37,359 nucleotides of DNA from Gammaproteobacteria bacterium (GTDB lineage: Bacteria > Pseudomonadota > Gammaproteobacteria > Pseudomonadales > Pseudohongiellaceae): NCBI GenBank assembly GCA_026710425.1, contig JAPORB010000075.1, positions 1 through 37,359 on the forward strand, written 5' to 3'. A program made the position numbers and the translations under genes. A model generated the notes under the pieces. That model was not told the origin of the DNA. It saw only the letters and a list, made by a program, of their open reading frames with translations, and made no database searches. Below are positions 20,874-29,571 of this stretch, in pieces (the first letter of the stretch is position 1; each line of letters starts with the position of its first letter).

Positions 20874-21016
20874 TCCGTTACCATAAGTCTCCAACCCGGC
20901 AATCGGCAAGGACAATCCCAATCGGCGCAGCACCGACATGTTAGGTGTTGCGAATTTTCTTTAGTTTAAGTGTGCAATTCATGCCATGGCTGTCATGTCG
21001 TAGGCATCTACAGACC

Positions 21017-22996
21017 ATGAGGAACCGATGGAATCAGCAGGAGGCAGCGCGTCTGGACGACTCTGACACGGTCGGGCAGAGGGTCTATTCATCGCGTTTG
21101 CTCGGAGCTGATAGTGATCTGGTACTCCATGGCGGTGGTAATACCTCAGTCAAAGGCACTCTCACGGACGTGTTTGGTGAGACAGTAGAGGTACTGTTCA
21201 TCAAGGGATCTGGCTGGGATTTACGTACCATTGAGGCTTCAGGATTCCCAGCAACCCGCCTGCCCCATCTCCGGCAACTGGCCCAACTGCCCTGTCTCAA
21301 CGACACTGAAATGATGCGCCAACTGCGGCTCGCCCTGTTGGACCCGGGCGGTCCGACCCCCTCGGTCGAAGCCATCCTGCATGCTCTGATTCCGCACCGA
21401 TTTGTGGATCATAGCCATGCCGATGCTGTTGTTACTCTCAGCAATACGCCTGAGGGTGAACAGATTTTGCACGAGTTGTATGGCGATGAGATCCTGATTT
21501 TGCCTTATCTTATGCCCGGCTTCCTCCTGGCAAGGCAGGTTGCAGCGGCGACAGAGGGCGCAGACTGGTCTCGTTTGCGTGGAATTGTGCTCATGCACCA
21601 TGGCATTTTCACGTTTCATGACCAGGCTAAAACCAGCTATGACACGATGATTGAGTTGGTAACCCGCGCCGAGGACTTCATAAAGTCCAAGGGAGCTACC
21701 TCTTTGGCTCGGTCCAGCACTAGCTTGTCTCAAAGTGATCTGCGTTACCTGAGTTTGTTACGAAAGCAGGCAGGTGTCTGCTACGGTGGTCCGGTTCTGA
21801 TACGCTGTAACCTGTCGGAATCAGCTGCCGGGTTCGCGACTCTGGACAATGCGGAGGCATTGGTCCAGCGCGGACCACTCACTCCAGATCATACGATTCA
21901 TGCCAAGGCTTTTGCGGCTGTTTTTGATGATGACCCAGTCAGCGAGCTGGAGACTTTCACTGCTGAGTATGAGCACTATTTTCGGCAGCATGCTGGCCCG
22001 GAACACCAGAGGCTGGATGCCATGCCGCGCTGGGGAATCTGGCGCAGACGTGGTTTGATTTGCCTGGCACCTAACAATAAACGACTGGGTATCGTTGCTG
22101 ATATTTCCCGCCACACCATCAAGGCCATTCAGCAAGCCGAGAATCTGGGTGGATGGACTACCCTATCCCGCAAATCTCTGTTTGAGGTGGAATACTGGGA
22201 ACTGGAACAGGCCAAGCTGAAATCCTCAAACCCACCTGAGACAATGCAGGGGAAAGTGGCTCTGGTATCTGGTGCGGCCTCCGGTATTGGCAAAGCCTGC
22301 ATGGAGGCTCTGGTGCAGCAGGGTGCTGTGGTGGTGGCACTGGATACCAGCGAGATTGACCTGTCGCCAAATATCAACGATTCGGTGCTGGCCCAGCAGT
22401 GTGATGTCACCTGTAGCAGTCAGATCGATAAAGCTTTGTCACAGGCTGTACAGCATTTTGGTGGACTGGATTTGCTGGTGAGCAACGCTGGTTGTTTCCC
22501 TCCAAGTGCTTTGATTGCCGAGTTACCGGACGACAGTTGGGAACAATCGGTTGAAGTGAACATGAGCGCACATATGCGCCTGTTACGGGCCTGCATTCCC
22601 TTGTTGCAGAACGGCTTCGATCCAGCAGTGGTCATAATTGGCTCCAAGAATGTACCGGCTCCCGGTCCTGGCGCGGCGGCCTACTCGGTTGCCAAGGCTG
22701 GTCTCAATCAGTTGGCCCGAATTGCAGCATTGGAGCTGGGCGGGTATGGCATCAGGGTCAATACGGTGCATCCCGATGCGATCTATGACACAGCACTTTG
22801 GACCCAAGAATTGCTGGCCGAGCGTGCTGCCCATTACGGGATGAGTCCTGCCGAGTATCGCAGTGCCAACCTGCTGGGAGCGGAGCTCAACTCATCCGAC
22901 GTGGCCAGCGTAGTAGTCAATCTGTTGGGTCCGGCCTTCAGCAAAACCACTGGTGCGCAGATTGCCATTGACGGTGGCAATGAGCGCGTTGTCTGA
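21017..22996 (+). CDS. Bifunctional class II aldolase / short-chain dehydrogenase
   Basis: A 659-residue fusion. The N-terminal class II (zinc) aldolase has the phosphate loop HGGGNTS (38-44), catalytic-type E118 (PSVEAILHALIP), and zinc His132/His134 (DHSHADAV) and His195 (MHHGIFTF). The C-terminal short-chain dehydrogenase (about 410-659) has SGAASGIG (418-425), Asp463, NAG (490-492), and catalytic Ser543, Tyr556 and Lys560 (YSVAK). This is the architecture of rhamnulose-1-phosphate aldolase/lactaldehyde dehydrogenase fusions (RhaEW, PRK08324-like). No rhamnose gene is nearby. Instead, the 3' end overlaps mtnA by 17 bases. I infer that the aldolase cleaves 5-methylthioribulose-1-phosphate or 5-deoxyribulose-1-phosphate into DHAP plus an aldehyde, and that the second domain oxidises or reduces the aldehyde. 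Start ATG 21017 is chosen; the frame also opens at 20945. Confidence 0.85.
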   Translation: MRNRWNQQEAARLDDSDTVGQRVYSSRLLGADSDLVLHGGGNTSVKGTLTDVFGETVEVLFIKGSGWDLRTIEASGFPATRLPHLRQLAQLPCLNDTEMMRQLRLALLDPGGPTPSVEAILHALIPHRFVDHSHADAVVTLSNTPEGEQILHELYGDEILILPYLMPGFLLARQVAAATEGADWSRLRGIVLMHHGIFTFHDQAKTSYDTMIELVTRAEDFIKSKGATSLARSSTSLSQSDLRYLSLLRKQAGVCYGGPVLIRCNLSESAAGFATLDNAEALVQRGPLTPDHTIHAKAFAAVFDDDPVSELETFTAEYEHYFRQHAGPEHQRLDAMPRWGIWRRRGLICLAPNNKRLGIVADISRHTIKAIQQAENLGGWTTLSRKSLFEVEYWELEQAKLKSSNPPETMQGKVALVSGAASGIGKACMEALVQQGAVVVALDTSEIDLSPNINDSVLAQQCDVTCSSQIDKALSQAVQHFGGLDLLVSNAGCFPPSALIAELPDDSWEQSVEVNMSAHMRLLRACIPLLQNGFDPAVVIIGSKNVPAPGPGAAAYSVAKAGLNQLARIAALELGGYGIRVNTVHPDAIYDTALWTQELLAERAAHYGMSPAEYRSANLLGAELNSSDVASVVVNLLGPAFSKTTGAQIAIDGGNERVV

Positions 22997-24089
22997 AAGT
23001 CCAGTAGTGATTGATCAGGTAACCGTGCCCCGGAGCCTGTGCTATGACCGGTCATTGGATACGGTCTGGATCATCAATCAAACTCAATTGCCTTATGCAT
23101 TAGAGCAAGTCCCTTTGAAGAGTTTGGAGGACTGTTGTCATGCTATCCGTTCAATGCAGGTTAGAGGGGCCCCTTTGATAGGGGTTACAGCTGCCTATGG
23201 TGTTTATCTGGCCTTGCGTGAAGATTGCTGTGCTCTGGAAGCGGCCATTAATGAGCTTTCAAAAACCCGACCGACCGCGGTGAATCTATCGTGGGCCCTG
23301 CAACGATGCCGGAATGAGTTGTCGACTGTGATAACCGAAGAGCGCGCAGAGCAGGCATTGGCCCTGGCGCAACGGCTGGAGGCCGAAGACATTGCGGTCT
23401 GCGCTGGCATCGGTGATCAGGGACTGCGATTACTGGAAGGATTATGGCAGTCCAGAGCGGAAAGTCAGGAGAGGTTGAACATTCTGACTCATTGCAATGC
23501 CGGGGCACTGGCAGCAGTTGACTGGGGTACTGCACTGGCTGTGGTATATAAGGCGGCAGCTGCCGAACTACCGGTACATGTCTGGGTAGACGAAACCCGC
23601 CCTCGAAATCAGGGTGCGGCATTGACCTGCTGGGAGCTAGCACAGCGAAAGATTCCCCATACACTTATCGTTGATAACGTCGGCGGTCATCTGATGCAGC
23701 GGGGGCAGGTGGATGTGTGTCTGGTAGGCAGCGATCGGACCACCCGTCGGGGTGATGTGTGTAACAAGATTGGTACTTATCTCAAGGCACTGGCGGCTCA
23801 CGACAACGACATACCGTTCTATGTTGCTTTGCCGGTTTCAAGCATTGACTTTGCTTGCATGGATGCACATAACGACATCCCCATTGAAGAGCGAAGTGGC
23901 AGCGAGGTGCTAACTGCAACTGGTCGCAATGCTGCTGGTGAGCTGCAGCAGATCTCCTTGGCTCCAGAGGCAACACCGGCAAGCAATTACGGGTTTGACA
24001 TTACACCGGCCCGACTGGTTACTGGTTTGATTACTGAGAAGGGGGTAGTGTCGGCTACTGAGTCCGGGATAGCATCACTCATCGACTAA
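22980..24089 (+). CDS. mtnA: Methylthioribose-1-phosphate isomerase
   Basis: Converts 5-methylthioribose-1-phosphate (and, in some pathways, 5-deoxyribose-1-phosphate) to the ribulose-1-phosphate, in salvage of SAM by-products. The 369-residue protein has the family elements: MQVRGAPLIGVTAAYG (59-74), PTAVNLSWAL (98-107), catalytic Cys172 in ILTHCNAGALA, ETRPRNQGAALT (205-216), and catalytic Asp252 in GSDRTTRRGDVCNKIGTY. These separate it from eIF2B subunits. The start ATG 22980 lies inside the end of the aldolase/dehydrogenase gene (17-base overlap), implying translational coupling. No mtnK, mtnP, mtnB or mtnD gene is in the window, so this is not a complete methionine salvage cluster. Its 3' end overlaps convergent hinT by four bases. 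Confidence 0.93.
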   Translation: MSALSESPVVIDQVTVPRSLCYDRSLDTVWIINQTQLPYALEQVPLKSLEDCCHAIRSMQVRGAPLIGVTAAYGVYLALREDCCALEAAINELSKTRPTAVNLSWALQRCRNELSTVITEERAEQALALAQRLEAEDIAVCAGIGDQGLRLLEGLWQSRAESQERLNILTHCNAGALAAVDWGTALAVVYKAAAAELPVHVWVDETRPRNQGAALTCWELAQRKIPHTLIVDNVGGHLMQRGQVDVCLVGSDRTTRRGDVCNKIGTYLKALAAHDNDIPFYVALPVSSIDFACMDAHNDIPIEERSGSEVLTATGRNAAGELQQISLAPEATPASNYGFDITPARLVTGLITEKGVVSATESGIASLID

Positions 24090-24430
24090 CCGGGAGGCCA
24101 ACCCAGCTGACGACCACCAAGTATGTGCAGGTGAAGGTGAAAGACTGTCTGGCCGCCGTTACTGCCGGTGTTGATGACGTAGCGAAAACCTTCTTCTGCC
24201 AGTCCTTCCTGTTCGGCGATTTGGTTGGCCACCAATAGGAGTTTTCCCAGCAGGGACTGATCCTGTTCACTTGCCTCGTTAATTGATGCGATATGGCGAT
24301 TGGGGATCACAAGAATATGCTTGGGTGCCGCTGGGTTGATATCGCGAAAAGCGGTGATGTCGTCGTCCTGGAATAGTTTTTGCGAGGGGATTTCTCCGGC
24401 CACGATCTTGCAGAACAAGCAGTCTTGCAT
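24086..24430 (-). CDS. hinT: HIT family purine nucleoside phosphoramidase HinT
   Basis: A histidine-triad hydrolase that cleaves AMP-lysine-type phosphoramidates. At 114 residues it has the normal HinT length. Features are DCLFCKIVAGEIPSQKL at the N-terminus with zinc-type Cys residues C4 and C7, PKHILVIPNRHI (36-47), and the triad H98-L-H100-L-H102 in FHLHLHILGG. The H100 position is the catalytic nucleophile in the family. It is convergent with mtnA, the two stops overlapping at 24086-24089, and divergent from the glutamine cyclotransferase gene (133 bases), so it is probably transcribed alone. Confidence 0.94.
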   Translation of the reverse strand: MQDCLFCKIVAGEIPSQKLFQDDDITAFRDINPAAPKHILVIPNRHIASINEASEQDQSLLGKLLLVANQIAEQEGLAEEGFRYVINTGSNGGQTVFHLHLHILGGRQLGWPPG

Positions 24431-24563
24431 CGGGTTTCTCCTTTTTCAATTCTCTGCTAAATGGTACTGAGCAGTCATAGCTGAGCCGCTGGAAGTACTG
24501 AGCCTGTAGCTTTTCAAGCCTAAACATTCTAAATCAGCCTCTGCAACTGGTAACATAACAGAC

Positions 24564-25355
24564 ATGAGATTCCATGACCTGATACGAATGATAATCTTGG
24601 TCCTGACTGGCACCCTGCTGGTACTGGTAGGTGCCACTAATGCTAGTGCCCAGTCAACTGTACCCCGATATGGCTTTCGCATTGTTGGAACCTACCCGCA
24701 TTCTGTTGATGCCTTTACCCAAGGGTTGTTTTTCCATGAGGGGTTTTTGTATGAGGGGACAGGCAAGCGGGGCAGATCAAGTCTCAGCAAGCGCAGACTT
24801 GAGGATATTTCGGTTGAACAGTCTGCAACGCTTCCTCGCCGGTATTTTGGCGAAGGCATTGAGCGGGTCAATGACCGTGTCTATCAACTTACCTGGACAT
24901 CTCATATGGTATTTGTCTATGACCTTGATTCCTTTGAGCAGGTGGCTACCCATTACAACCCGACTCAAGGCTGGGGACTGGCCTGGGACGGAGAACTTTT
25001 GATACTCAGCGATGGAAGCTATGAGTTGCAATTCATCAATCCGCTCAATTTTGTATCACAGCGCAAGGTGGCGGTCACGCTTAATGGCAACCCGATCGAC
25101 AATCTTAACGAACTGGAATACATCAATGGCGAGGTTTGGGCCAATGTCTGGCAGACTGATTTTATACTGCGCATTGATCCAGCAACTGGTCGGGTAAATT
25201 CCATTGTAGATCTTACCGGTCTTTCTGAGCAAACTGAGCTAGGCAGTGCAGAGGCTGTTCTCAATGGCATAGCCTGGGATGCCGCGCAGGAACGGTTATT
25301 CGTAACCGGCAAACACTGGGCAAATCTGTTCGAGATCGAACTTATTAGTCCCTGA
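24564..25355 (+). CDS. Secreted glutaminyl-peptide cyclotransferase (glutamine cyclotransferase)
   Basis: Belongs to the beta-propeller glutamine cyclotransferase family (plant/bacterial type, PF05096), which cyclises N-terminal Gln to pyroglutamate. The 263-residue protein has a signal peptide (membrane stretch about 9-24; AxA site NASAQ near residue 30). The mature part contains [62 protein letters not shown] and LNGIAWD, the repeated blade signatures of the family. This predicts a periplasmic enzyme. It starts a plus-strand run with yjbQ (20 bases on) and the metallopeptidase lipoprotein. Confidence 0.9.
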
Positions 25356-25375
25356 CTGCAAAGACGAATTCATTC

Positions 25376-25819
25376 ATGTGGTTGCACAAGCGAATTACGC
25401 TTATCCCCAAACCGAGGGGATTTCATCTCGTGACAGATGAAGTGCTGGCGCAGTGCCCGGAGATCACACAAATTGAAACGGGGCTCGTCCATTTTCTGCT
25501 ACAGCATACCTCCGCCTCTCTGAGCCTGAATGAGAATGCCGACCCGTCGGTGCGTAGTGATCTGGAATCTCATTTCGAGGTGATTGCTCCGGAAAACGCT
25601 CCCTATTACGAGCATACCCTGGAAGGAGCGGACGACATGCCGGCCCATATCAAATCTGGGTTGCTGGGCTGTGAGCTGACCTTACCGATTCGGCAGGGTC
25701 GGCTGGTGCTAGGGACTTGGCAAGGATTGATCTTAGGTGAACATCGCGACTGGGGAGGATCCCGCACATTGATTATGACCATTCAGGGTGAGAGACGTTG
25801 CGACAAAGGCCACGAATGA
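25376..25819 (+). CDS. yjbQ: YjbQ family protein (UPF0047)
   Basis: A small (147-residue) enzyme-like protein of the UPF0047/YjbQ family, reported to have weak thiamine-phosphate synthase activity; its physiological role is uncertain. Family landmarks: [18 protein letters not shown] (38-55), [17 protein letters not shown] (80-96), the late [20 protein letters not shown], and a final R-T-L-I. The conserved His residues form the presumed active site. The last codons overlap the next gene by four bases (ATGA, 25816-25819), so the two are likely co-translated. Confidence 0.92.
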
Positions 25820-26883
25820 CCGTTCGAATCCATTGGTTAACAATCCTGAAGCTCCTGGCACTCGGAGCCTTGTCTGTTCTGTTGTTATCCTGTGAAGCGG
25901 TGTCCTATTACGCTCAAGCTGCTCGTGGTCAGATATCTATTCTCTCGGCTCGGGAGGACATTCATCGGCTGCTACATGATAAGAAACTGTCTTCCGACCA
26001 GCGTAGCAGATTTGAATTGGTGCTGGCACTGAGGCGGTTTGCGCAAGATGAGCTGGCACTGCCGGTGGCGGACAATTATTCGGCCTTTGTGGAGGTGGGA
26101 AGGGAACATGTGGTATGGAATGTGTTTGCGGCACCGGAGTTTTCCACCAAAGCGGTAAACTGGTGTTATCCAATTGCCGGTTGTGTCACCTACCGGGGGT
26201 ATTTCAATGAGCAGAATGCTTTGCGTTATGCCCGACGGTTAGAAGCGGAAGGATTTGATGTCTATACCGGTGGTGTTGATGCCTATTCCACCTTGGGCTG
26301 GTTCGACGATCCGCTACTGAGTACGGTAATGAAGCGGTCTGACTGGCAGTTGGCTGGACTAATCTTCCATGAGTTGGCCCACCAGGTGGTTTACGTACAG
26401 GCTGATACCACCTTCAATGAGAGCTTTGCCACGGCAGTGGAGCGTGAGGGCATTAGGCGCTGGCTACTAAGCAAGGGCCAAGATGAATGGATTGTTGCGG
26501 CTGATGTTGCCCTGTCCCGACAGCAGGACTTTGTTGAGTTGGTGATACGCTGGCGTAATTGCTTCGCAGAGTTGTATGAGCAGCAGCTCACTACTGGGGA
26601 AATGCGTACCCGCAAACAACTGATGCAGCAGCAAATGCGAGCCGACTATCTATTGTTGAAGCAGCGTTGGGACGGATATGCGGGCTATGATAGTTGGTTC
26701 TCACGCTCTCTCAATAATGCCCAGTTATCGACTGTGGCATCTTATAACGATCTGGTGCCAAGCTTTGATGCTTTGCTTATGAGTCTCAACGGTGACATGT
26801 CGGCCTTCTATAGTGCCGTGCGCCAGTTGGCACAATTGCCGATGGAGGAGCGAGCTGCCCGTTTAGCTAGTATTACGCAGTGA
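25816..26883 (+). CDS. Predicted aminopeptidase lipoprotein (DUF2265, zinc peptidase)
   Basis: A 355-residue predicted membrane-attached zinc peptidase of the DUF2265/PF10023 family. It starts at ATG 25816, overlapping yjbQ. The N-terminus is a lipoprotein signal: hydrophobic 8-24, then LLSC with Cys26 for lipidation. The active-site motif is HELAH (185-189), followed by a third-ligand-type Glu202 in [10 protein letters not shown], the gluzincin arrangement. The segment [15 protein letters not shown] (116-130) is family-typical. Cleavage of N-terminal residues from periplasmic peptides is inferred. Pairing with a glutamine cyclotransferase is suggestive of N-terminal processing in the envelope but is not proof. 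Confidence 0.88.
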
Positions 26884-27306: not shown

Positions 27307-29571
27307 CTATAGCAGTGTGATCAGATGTGAATCCCCAGTTGTCTTGGTCAACTGACCGATGATGGCAGCTTCCCGGTAGCAAGCCTTCTTCAGTTCCTTC
27401 ATGCAATTGGTAACGTTTTCCTGTGGCAAGCTGCACAGTAGGCCTCCGGAGGTCTGTGGATCGAACAATAACTGCAATCTACCCTTTTTGGACTCAGTAT
27501 TTAGCAGATTTCGTGATACTTGGCTGTTGTCGTCATGCAAGGAACTGAAGATCTGTTTTTCAAAACAAGCTAGGGCACCCGGCAAGGCAGAAACTTTTTC
27601 GAGTAAAATTTCGGCATTGCAGCCACTGGCACGAATCACTTCCAGCAAGTGACCGGCTAGTCCAAAACCGGTGATGTCAGTACAGGCCCTGGCACCATGG
27701 CTCACGAGTATTTCGGCTGCTTCGGCATTGGATTGCAGCATGGAGTGGAATGCCTCTTGCATCCAGTGATGCCCGGCCTGATTGCGCATGTCAGCTGCCA
27801 GCAAAGTGCCGGTACCCAAAGCCTTGGTGAGAATGAGTGCATCACCGGCCTGACCCCGGTCTTTGCGTAGCAGCAACCCGGGCTCGGCAAAGCCGTTGAC
27901 GCAAAGACCGAATTGCAAATCCTCCGACTCAGCTGTATGACCTCCTACCAGTGCACATTCAGCTGCATTCAACTCTCGTACACATCCCTGCATAATTTCT
28001 CGCAGTTGTTGCCGACGGTAGTGCTTTCCCGCAAAGGGCAGACCGACAATAGCAAGGGCAGAGTGGGGCTTAATGCCCATGGCATGTATATCACTCAGAC
28101 AATGAACAGTTGCAATGCGAGCAAACAGCCAAGGATCATCAACAAAGCTCCTTAGGTAGTCGACGCTCTGCAGCAACAAGCGACCATCCGGTAATTGAAT
28201 CTGCGACGCATCTTCGATGCCGCCAGGTGTCTGGAGAATAGTTTCATTGAAAGTCAACTCCAGTTCTGACAACACCTCGTTCAAGTCATCAGCGGAGACT
28301 TTGGCACCACATCCAGCACAACGCATGGCATGTTGCTTCAATGTTATCTCAGTGTCAGCATCCACCAGGTCCTTGGCTTGTTGTAGCTTCATTTCCATCA
28401 CAGGGAGTTCGCTGAATTTATTGACGAAGCTTGAATCAATCCAGTGCTTAATCTGCCATATACTGCGCCCCTGCATAAACCATTCACCTCTGGAGGCAAT
28501 GGCCTTGCCGTTACCCATGCTCATCAAAGCCAGAGATTTCCTTTGTGGGAAATACGCTTTGAGGGATTTACCGGTAGCATAACGGCGCAGGTTGTCTGCC
28601 AGTACCTTGCCTTGGCGCACCGCATACACGCCGGATTTCGGACGGGGCTCATCGACCACAGTGGCGACATCACCAGCGGCGAAAACAAAATCATGGCTGG
28701 TGGTTTGCAGGCTGGGTCGTACGCTGATAAATCCGTCTAAGCTGCGTTCCAAGCCGCACTGGAAAGGCCATTCCGGCGCACTGGCCCCGGTGGCATAAAC
28801 AATGGCTTCGGCGGAAAGGGTTTCCCCATCCTCAAACACTAAAAAACCTGATCTACATTCCACCACCCGGGTATCAACTAAGAGCCCGATATTTCTGCGC
28901 CTAAGCTCGGCTGTGGCAAAGTTTCGAACCCGGTTATTATGCATTGCCAGAATCTCCTGGTCAGCAGTGACCAGAGTGAGCTTGAAACTTTCATCCTTGC
29001 CAGGATCTAGTCCACACTCTTGCAACAGTCGGTGTCGAGTGGCAAAGGCCAGCTCCACACTGGCCGGCCCGCCTCCCACTATGACCATGGAGAAGCTGCC
29101 GCCCTCATTGAGTCTTGATTTGATGCTCTGACGCCAGCTTTCCCATTGGGTAATGAAGCGATCAATAGGTTTGACCGCTGTGGCAAACTCACTGGCACCG
29201 ACAATGTATTCGGGATCTGGTTTGGAACCGATATTCAATGAGAGTATGTCGAAAGGGATGTCTGGACGATCCTTTAGGGCAATAGTCCTGGAGGTTAAAT
29301 CAACCCTTTCCACTTCATGCTGGATAAGAGTTGCTCCAGCGAATCGAGACAAAGGCTGCAAGTCGATATGCATTTGTTCAGGCAGATAGCTGCCGGCCAG
29401 ATAGCCAGGCAGAGAGCCGGAGTAGGGAGTGAAGATATCTCGACTGATGAGGGTAATGGCCAGGCCAGGCAATGGTCGCATGCCAAACTGTCGCAGGACG
29501 GACAGATGACTGTGTCCACCCCCCAACAGAACCAGATGTTTGACTGTGGGACTGACGGATTTCATAAGCAC
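27307..29571 (-). CDS. selD: Selenide, water dikinase fused to an FAD/NAD(P) oxidoreductase
   Basis: A 754-residue two-domain protein. Residues 1 to about 385 are a pyridine-nucleotide-disulfide (NDH-2-like) oxidoreductase: FAD loop LVLLGGGHSH (13-22), second dinucleotide loop MVIVGGGPASVE (162-173), and the C-terminal FAD motif FVFAAGDVA (295-303). Residues about 410-754 are SelD, which makes selenophosphate from selenide and ATP: CAGCGAK with C421 and K424 matching E. coli Cys17/Lys20, VDYLRSFVDDPW, and GGHTAESEDLQFG. The catalytic position is Cys, not selenocysteine. This fusion is known in marine bacteria and cyanobacteria; the N-terminal domain may supply reduced selenium. It follows the MFS gene by 18 bases. 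GTG 29571 and ATG 29565 are both possible starts. No selA, selB or selU is in the window. Confidence 0.92.
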   Translation of the reverse strand: MLMKSVSPTVKHLVLLGGGHSHLSVLRQFGMRPLPGLAITLISRDIFTPYSGSLPGYLAGSYLPEQMHIDLQPLSRFAGATLIQHEVERVDLTSRTIALKDRPDIPFDILSLNIGSKPDPEYIVGASEFATAVKPIDRFITQWESWRQSIKSRLNEGGSFSMVIVGGGPASVELAFATRHRLLQECGLDPGKDESFKLTLVTADQEILAMHNNRVRNFATAELRRRNIGLLVDTRVVECRSGFLVFEDGETLSAEAIVYATGASAPEWPFQCGLERSLDGFISVRPSLQTTSHDFVFAAGDVATVVDEPRPKSGVYAVRQGKVLADNLRRYATGKSLKAYFPQRKSLALMSMGNGKAIASRGEWFMQGRSIWQIKHWIDSSFVNKFSELPVMEMKLQQAKDLVDADTEITLKQHAMRCAGCGAKVSADDLNEVLSELELTFNETILQTPGGIEDASQIQLPDGRLLLQSVDYLRSFVDDPWLFARIATVHCLSDIHAMGIKPHSALAIVGLPFAGKHYRRQQLREIMQGCVRELNAAECALVGGHTAESEDLQFGLCVNGFAEPGLLLRKDRGQAGDALILTKALGTGTLLAADMRNQAGHHWMQEAFHSMLQSNAEAAEILVSHGARACTDITGFGLAGHLLEVIRASGCNAEILLEKVSALPGALACFEKQIFSSLHDDNSQVSRNLLNTESKKGRLQLLFDPQTSGGLLCSLPQENVTNCMKELKKACYREAAIIGQLTKTTGDSHLITLL

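Follow-up and report, generated by a model that had tools for sequence, protein, structure and literature searches.

A Class II Aldolase–Dehydrogenase Fusion Next to mtnA

This work concerns a predicted two-domain protein encoded next to mtnA on contig JAPORB010000075.1 (GCA_026710425.1), from a member of the Pseudohongiellaceae. Positions 1 to 37,359 of this contig are referred to as the window, and the genome to which they belong (3.8 Mb, 99.95% complete) as G000. The protein, of 659 aa (21017..22996, plus strand), joins a class II aldolase to a short-chain dehydrogenase (SDR) and is proposed, from its domains, an alignment of its relatives, its residues and a structural model, to act as a 5-(methylthio/deoxy)ribulose-1-phosphate aldolase/aldehyde oxidoreductase. 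Its single open frame (20945–22996, plus strand) extends 5' to a GTG at 20945, and the alignment of relatives begins at the ATG at 21017. An N-terminal Aldolase_II domain (PF00596, 21092..21673) precedes a C-terminal SDR domain (PF13561/PF00106; 22271..22978 for PF13561), in which the profile match and the alignment place the N-S-Y-K residues, with an Asp following the second strand. Aldolase residues N42/T43/S44, E118 and H132/H134/H195, as well as SDR residues N490, N515, S543, Y556, K560 and D443, are intact and invariant in all 112 family rows, in line with the sequence-only reading of this DNA, which had described every catalytic residue of the aldolase, the dehydrogenase and MtnA as intact. 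Asn 515 is taken here to be a member of the SDR N-S-Y-K tetrad. The catalytic roles of the listed positions are those expected for these enzyme families, in part, for the aldolase, after PMC6079011.

An AlphaFold2 model of the fusion was confident, with a mean predicted local distance difference test score of 90.6 and a predicted template modeling score of 0.88. Its best PDB match was a class II aldolase domain from a protein of Thermoplasma acidophilum (3m4r, 42% identity), the other matches among the 50 listed being SDRs. Between the two catalytic domains (21734–22216, about residues 240–400), the order of strands and helices, judged by eye, seems to resemble a second, degenerate aldolase-fold part. 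The best protein family was NF006196, “bifunctional aldolase/short-chain dehydrogenase,” a name which carries no substrate; the window protein scored 815 bits, just under the cut-off of 831, and three mtnA-linked relatives, for which this family was likewise the best, scored 837, 1031 and 1016 bits.

The next gene on the plus strand, mtnA (22980..24089; frame 22953/22980–24089), encodes an S-methyl-5-thioribose-1-phosphate isomerase (TIGR00512, 390 bits; cut-off 279) in which the catalytic Cys (in THCNAG) and Asp (in GSDR) are retained. The two genes are certainly co-directional and tightly packed. An overlap of 17 bases with the fusion stop at 22996, as noted from the sequence alone, holds if mtnA starts at ATG 22980, which is preceded by GGTGG; it is uncertain, since a start at GTG 23007 would instead leave a gap of 10 bases. 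Among ten syntenic relatives, candidate in-frame mtnA starts lie 7–135 bases past the fusion stop in eight and overlap it in two, so that relatives keep the pairing but not the exact overlap. Between 20200 and 24600, four promoters were found, with no excess over shuffled sequences (mean 3.6), and two terminators, against a shuffle mean of 3.7. No rhamnose gene was recognized among the 19 open reading frames (ORFs) of the window covered by profile scans, smaller ORFs being left out, which agrees with the earlier remark that none lay near the fusion.

Partner Genes in the Genome

Two of the enzymes expected of a dihydroxyacetone phosphate (DHAP) shunt were present in G000: an MtnA-type isomerase, which was the only IF-2B family match found, and a class II aldolase carrying His metal ligands and a catalytic Glu, the fusion being the only PF00596 match found. 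Entry into such a shunt is by a 5'-methylthioadenosine phosphorylase (MtnP) or by a nucleosidase together with MtnK; here, two candidate enzymes which may supply MtnA were identified. The single PNP_UDP_1 protein (C145, L003) exceeded the cut-off of the methylthioinosine phosphorylase family NF006599 (301 bits vs 223), and an amidohydrolase/hydrolase (C10, L114) that of NF006549 (640 bits vs 540), a family which presumably includes the 5'-methylthioadenosine (MTA) deaminase PA3170 of Pseudomonas aeruginosa. In terms of sequence families, a candidate gene thus appears to exist for each step from MTA to the MtnA product.

The sequence-only reading had advised looking for mtnK or mtnP and for rhaA, and had named a complete rhamnose cluster elsewhere with the fusion as its only aldolase, or a complete mtnBCD route using the MtnA product, as evidence that would speak against it. 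In G000, neither mtnK (TIGR01767 search, cut-off 275 bits) nor the rhamnose isomerases RhaA (PF06134 search) and RhaI-type (TIGR02629 search) were found, and the PNP_UDP_1 protein remained below the MTAP cut-off (238 bits vs 275). Universal methionine salvage (MtnBCD) was not recovered there either, with mtnB (TIGR03328 search) and mtnD (PF03079 search) not found and mtnC not searched for. Of the class II aldolases and dehydratases searched for in G000, the fusion alone was found as a possible consumer of the MtnA product, these searches not extending to mtnC or to a RuBisCO-like route.

Recurrent Linkage to mtnA

A scan of genome contigs yielded at least 593 relatives, of which the best 80 were analyzed. 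In 19 of these 80, spread over four phyla, mtnA adjoins the fusion or lies one gene away on the same strand (one gene intervenes in L072 and L087), and clustering gave mtnA as the commonest neighbor family after the fusion itself (18/80 loci). The order of the window, fusion then mtnA, was shared by ten proteobacterial loci, titled Gammaproteobacteria, Pseudomonadales, OM182 or Proteobacteria, and mtnA stood upstream of the fusion in nine, namely four Bacteroidota, three Sulfurimonas, one Planctomycetota and one Ferrigenium. Further genes of the same metabolism accompanied the pair in places. In Sulfurimonas L092, the order is mtnK-mtnA-fusion, with the kinase (TIGR01767, 490 bits) overlapping mtnA and the fusion directly after it; this gene order recurs in L095, and a kinase of that family is also found in L087, the kinase profile having been run on L092. 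In Ferrigenium L108, the mtnA-fusion pair has an MTA phosphorylase gene (mtnP; NF006492, 511 bits, cut-off 437) on its upstream side, mtnP and mtnA being separated by a single predicted ORF on the minus strand.

On two trees, the label “mtnA-adjacent” required four to five changes (gains or losses), of which at least three were forced by starred branches; rows outside the context groups (84/116 and 22/57) were not counted, and both trees carried a warning that long branches meet, namely those of L129 and L134 and of the rhamnose-type fusions called RhaEW. The smallest starred sets holding the window protein (2, 9 and 10 rows) were entirely mtnA-adjacent. The neighborhood survey proposed in the earlier reading revealed a recurrent linkage. 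That it repeats, and that mtnK or mtnP joins it in lineages far apart, is difficult to account for if the fusion does not act downstream of MtnA.

A Proposed Fused DHAP Shunt and the Direction of Its Redox Step

The fusion is likely to carry out the lower part of a DHAP shunt. It most likely works with MtnA and probably clears toxic leftovers of S-adenosylmethionine (SAM). This assignment draws on the adjacent, co-directional genes and the sole class II aldolase found in a nearly complete genome, on the mtnB, mtnD, mtnK and rhamnose isomerase searches that returned nothing there, on the presence of the phosphorylase and the NF006549 hydrolase, and on the recurrence of mtnA beside, and of IF-2B proteins along with, the fusion in other genomes (see below). 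The genomic comparisons thus support the idea, first drawn from the letters alone, that an aldolase and an aldehyde-processing enzyme form one polypeptide coupled to MtnA, with its substrate and SDR direction predicted.

In this route, MTA would be deaminated by the NF006549 protein, and the resulting methylthioinosine would be converted by the phosphorylase to 5-methylthioribose-1-phosphate, which MtnA would isomerize to 5-methylthioribulose-1-phosphate. Cleavage of the latter by the aldolase domain may then yield DHAP and (methylthio)acetaldehyde, and the attached SDR would convert this aldehyde with NAD(H), the alcohol being a more probable product than the acid. With 5'-deoxyadenosine as the starting compound, these enzymes could likewise produce DHAP and acetaldehyde. 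By homology to DrdA and FucA (PMC6079011), a metal on H132, H134 and H195 would polarize the ketose phosphate and E118 would move protons, with release of DHAP and the aldehyde.

Downstream of the same aldolase reaction, the SDR may instead use NAD+ to oxidize the aldehyde, giving (methylthio)acetate or acetate in the manner of RhaW; this is the less probable of the two directions, yet a real contender. D443 would suit NAD(H). RhaEW, in which a class II aldolase is likewise fused to an SDR, makes L-lactate and DHAP and requires NAD+, without which neither product is formed (PMC3870299); its two sites are thus coupled, and a similar coupling here would, through channeling, stop the aldehyde from escaping. 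The chemistry need not match, however, since the position of Asn 515, an Asn in 112/112 family rows, is occupied by Leu or Met in 8/8 RhaEW-type proteins. This substitution of the tetrad Asn in the SDR halves of RhaEW is perhaps linked to aldehyde-to-acid chemistry. In addition, the shunt product in Rhodopseudomonas palustris is 2-(methylthio)ethanol, via a putative dehydrogenase, and Escherichia coli forms ethanol aerobically and an ethanol/acetate mixture anaerobically (PMC5893883, PMC10986504). Because of these products and of the complete N-S-Y-K tetrad, we lean toward reduction.

Distribution Across the Class and Other Contexts

The distribution of the fusion was surveyed in 369 genomes of the class Gammaproteobacteria, a full-length fusion being defined by at least 43% identity and more than 570 bits. 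It was found in 57 genomes, G000 included, which were compared with 309 genomes without it; the latter take in three RhaEW genomes and G232, and the partial or split matches of G343, G319 and G306 were excluded. An IF-2B (MtnA-type) protein above cut-off was present in 53/57 fusion genomes vs 170/309 others, the Fisher values of this comparison being uncorrected for kinship.

Several observations weigh against the proposed shunt. Four of the 57 fusion genomes gave no IF-2B match (G076, G191, G286 and G318, respectively 96, 97, 85 and 79% complete). The dehydratase route often accompanies the fusion, with mtnB in 25/57 genomes, mtnD in 25/57, both in 24/57 and neither in 31/57. A general replacement of MtnBCD by the fusion was accordingly rejected, and mtnB was indeed not rarer among MtnA-bearing genomes with the fusion (22/53) than among those without (48/170). 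Fusion and mtnA were adjacent in two of the 53 class genomes in which both places were known, many assemblies being fragmented; these two were G000 and G343, the latter through a contig-end fragment. As for the named relatives, all 19 mtnA-linked loci are metagenome-assembled, so that their organism names carry caution, and the Bacteroidota loci L054 and L055 are near-identical. For 50 of the 61 fusion loci without a nearby mtnA, the genomes were checked for IF-2B proteins, which were matched in 37 and missing in 13. Other neighborhoods also occur: clustering placed a UPF0261 (Tm-1-like) family gene near the fusion in 9/80 loci (L043, L049, L059 from Sediminicola luteus, L063, L094, L099, L102, L110 and L113), and a Shinella plasmid copy (44% identity) lies near lsrF, a sugar ABC transporter, an FGGY kinase and a glycerol-3-phosphate dehydrogenase.

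These contexts bear on another explanation, in which the fusion obtains DHAP from a different deoxyketose-1-phosphate and adjoins mtnA for historical reasons. Seven of the nine UPF0261 loci also hold a PF09370 TIM-barrel family gene (one member of each family was scanned), and IF-2B was missing in 7/9 UPF0261-linked genomes vs 6/41 of the other genomes without a nearby mtnA, which suggests a second substrate for these members; the LsrF, transporter and kinase genes of the Shinella locus point the same way. For the window protein, this explanation is nevertheless rather improbable, as its clade (10 rows, starred) is wholly mtnA-adjacent, the linkage recurs elsewhere along with mtnK or mtnP, and the searches of G000 gave neither a further class II aldolase nor MtnB to act on the MtnA product. 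The family as a whole seems to serve more than one purpose. Given its varied contexts (UPF0261, LsrF), often without MtnA, the DHAP-shunt assignment should not be extended to every member, and it is most secure within the mtnA-linked clade that includes the window protein.

Other neighbors were recorded. The annotated lsrF (L133:7053-7934) precedes the fusion in the Shinella plasmid sugar locus, and DeoC/LacD-family genes lie at or near the fusion in L069 (10206-11093; the one scanned), L076, L098 and L104, from Desulfobacterales, Deltaproteobacteria, Lentisphaera and Verrucomicrobiales. In the window, mtnA is followed (24086–26883) by HIT, glutamine cyclotransferase-like (PF05096), YjbQ (TIGR00149) and PF10023 aminopeptidase genes. 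Across the mtnA-linked loci of Proteobacteria, several clusters of neighboring genes are found repeatedly. Further on in the window (27307–29571, minus strand), a pyridine-nucleotide oxidoreductase domain is joined to AIRS/AIRS_C domains in a SelD-like fusion.

Comparison With Known Systems

Proteins of this type are often labeled as rhamnose-breakdown enzymes. The closest two-domain counterpart is RhaEW, the rhamnulose-1-phosphate aldolase/lactaldehyde dehydrogenase of Chloroflexus aurantiacus and Bacillus subtilis (YuxG). Eight RhaEW-type proteins (L126–L128 and L135–L139) were compared with the window protein, six being assigned by an adjacent rhamnose isomerase and L135 and L136 by TIGR02632 score alone; the characterized C. 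aurantiacus and B. subtilis enzymes were not among them. They formed a separate clade with full support, at 29–31% identity to the window protein. On the RhaEW family TIGR02632, the latter scored 386 bits (385.6), below the cut-off of 568 (567.75), vs 953–1075 bits for the three rhamnose-cluster RhaEWs scanned. In the three RhaEW genomes (G190, G354 and G258), TIGR02629 matched a rhamnose isomerase beside the fusion, and the two of these fusions scanned reached 1075 and 1061 bits. Glu118 was tried and rejected as a mark setting the window protein apart from RhaEW: the first 3/3 RhaEWs have Asp there, but a Bacillaceae RhaEW-type protein has Glu. That the window fusion is itself a RhaEW, despite the identical domain order and the sub-threshold TIGR02632 match, is very improbable, and rhamnose catabolism was rejected in view of this score, the separate clade and the failure to find RhaA or a RhaI-type isomerase in G000. 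The window protein further differs from RhaEW in keeping Asn 515 and in having MtnA as its partner.

The claim of a new domain arrangement must be narrowed accordingly. The aldolase–SDR fusion was already known from RhaEW (PMC3870299), and it is its use in the salvage of SAM by-products that would be new. No such use is described in the parts of PMC6302742, PMC6079011, PMC10986504, PMC3870299, PMC5893883 and PMC12632272 available, nor elsewhere in the literature covered by a partial and non-exhaustive search, so that an earlier mention is possible. Since a two-domain RhaEW is known, the system encoded here is most likely a new form of the DHAP shunt and not a pathway of a new type.

On a broader scale, we see an even chance that a fused DHAP shunt is widespread in at least four phyla under substrate-free or rhamnose-like annotation, the protein passing (methylthio)acetaldehyde to its own SDR and so supplying the dehydrogenase that is putative in Rhodospirillum rubrum and R. 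palustris. If so, many “bifunctional aldolase/short-chain dehydrogenase” proteins would belong, at least partly, to the disposal of SAM by-products, and the aldehyde step of the R. rubrum and R. palustris shunts would become directly testable with one protein. An aldolase–SDR fusion alone is, in any case, insufficient ground for calling rhamnose use.

Two known systems share the logic proposed here. In the DHAP shunt with Ald2 (R. rubrum, R. palustris and some E. coli), MtnA feeds a class II aldolase which yields DHAP and an aldehyde, and in the DrdK-DrdI-DrdA system of Bacillus thuringiensis, the isomerase DrdI does the same. Aldolase and dehydrogenase are described as separate enzymes in these shunts, the dehydrogenase of R. 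rubrum and R. palustris being putative, whereas a single two-domain protein would supply both steps here.

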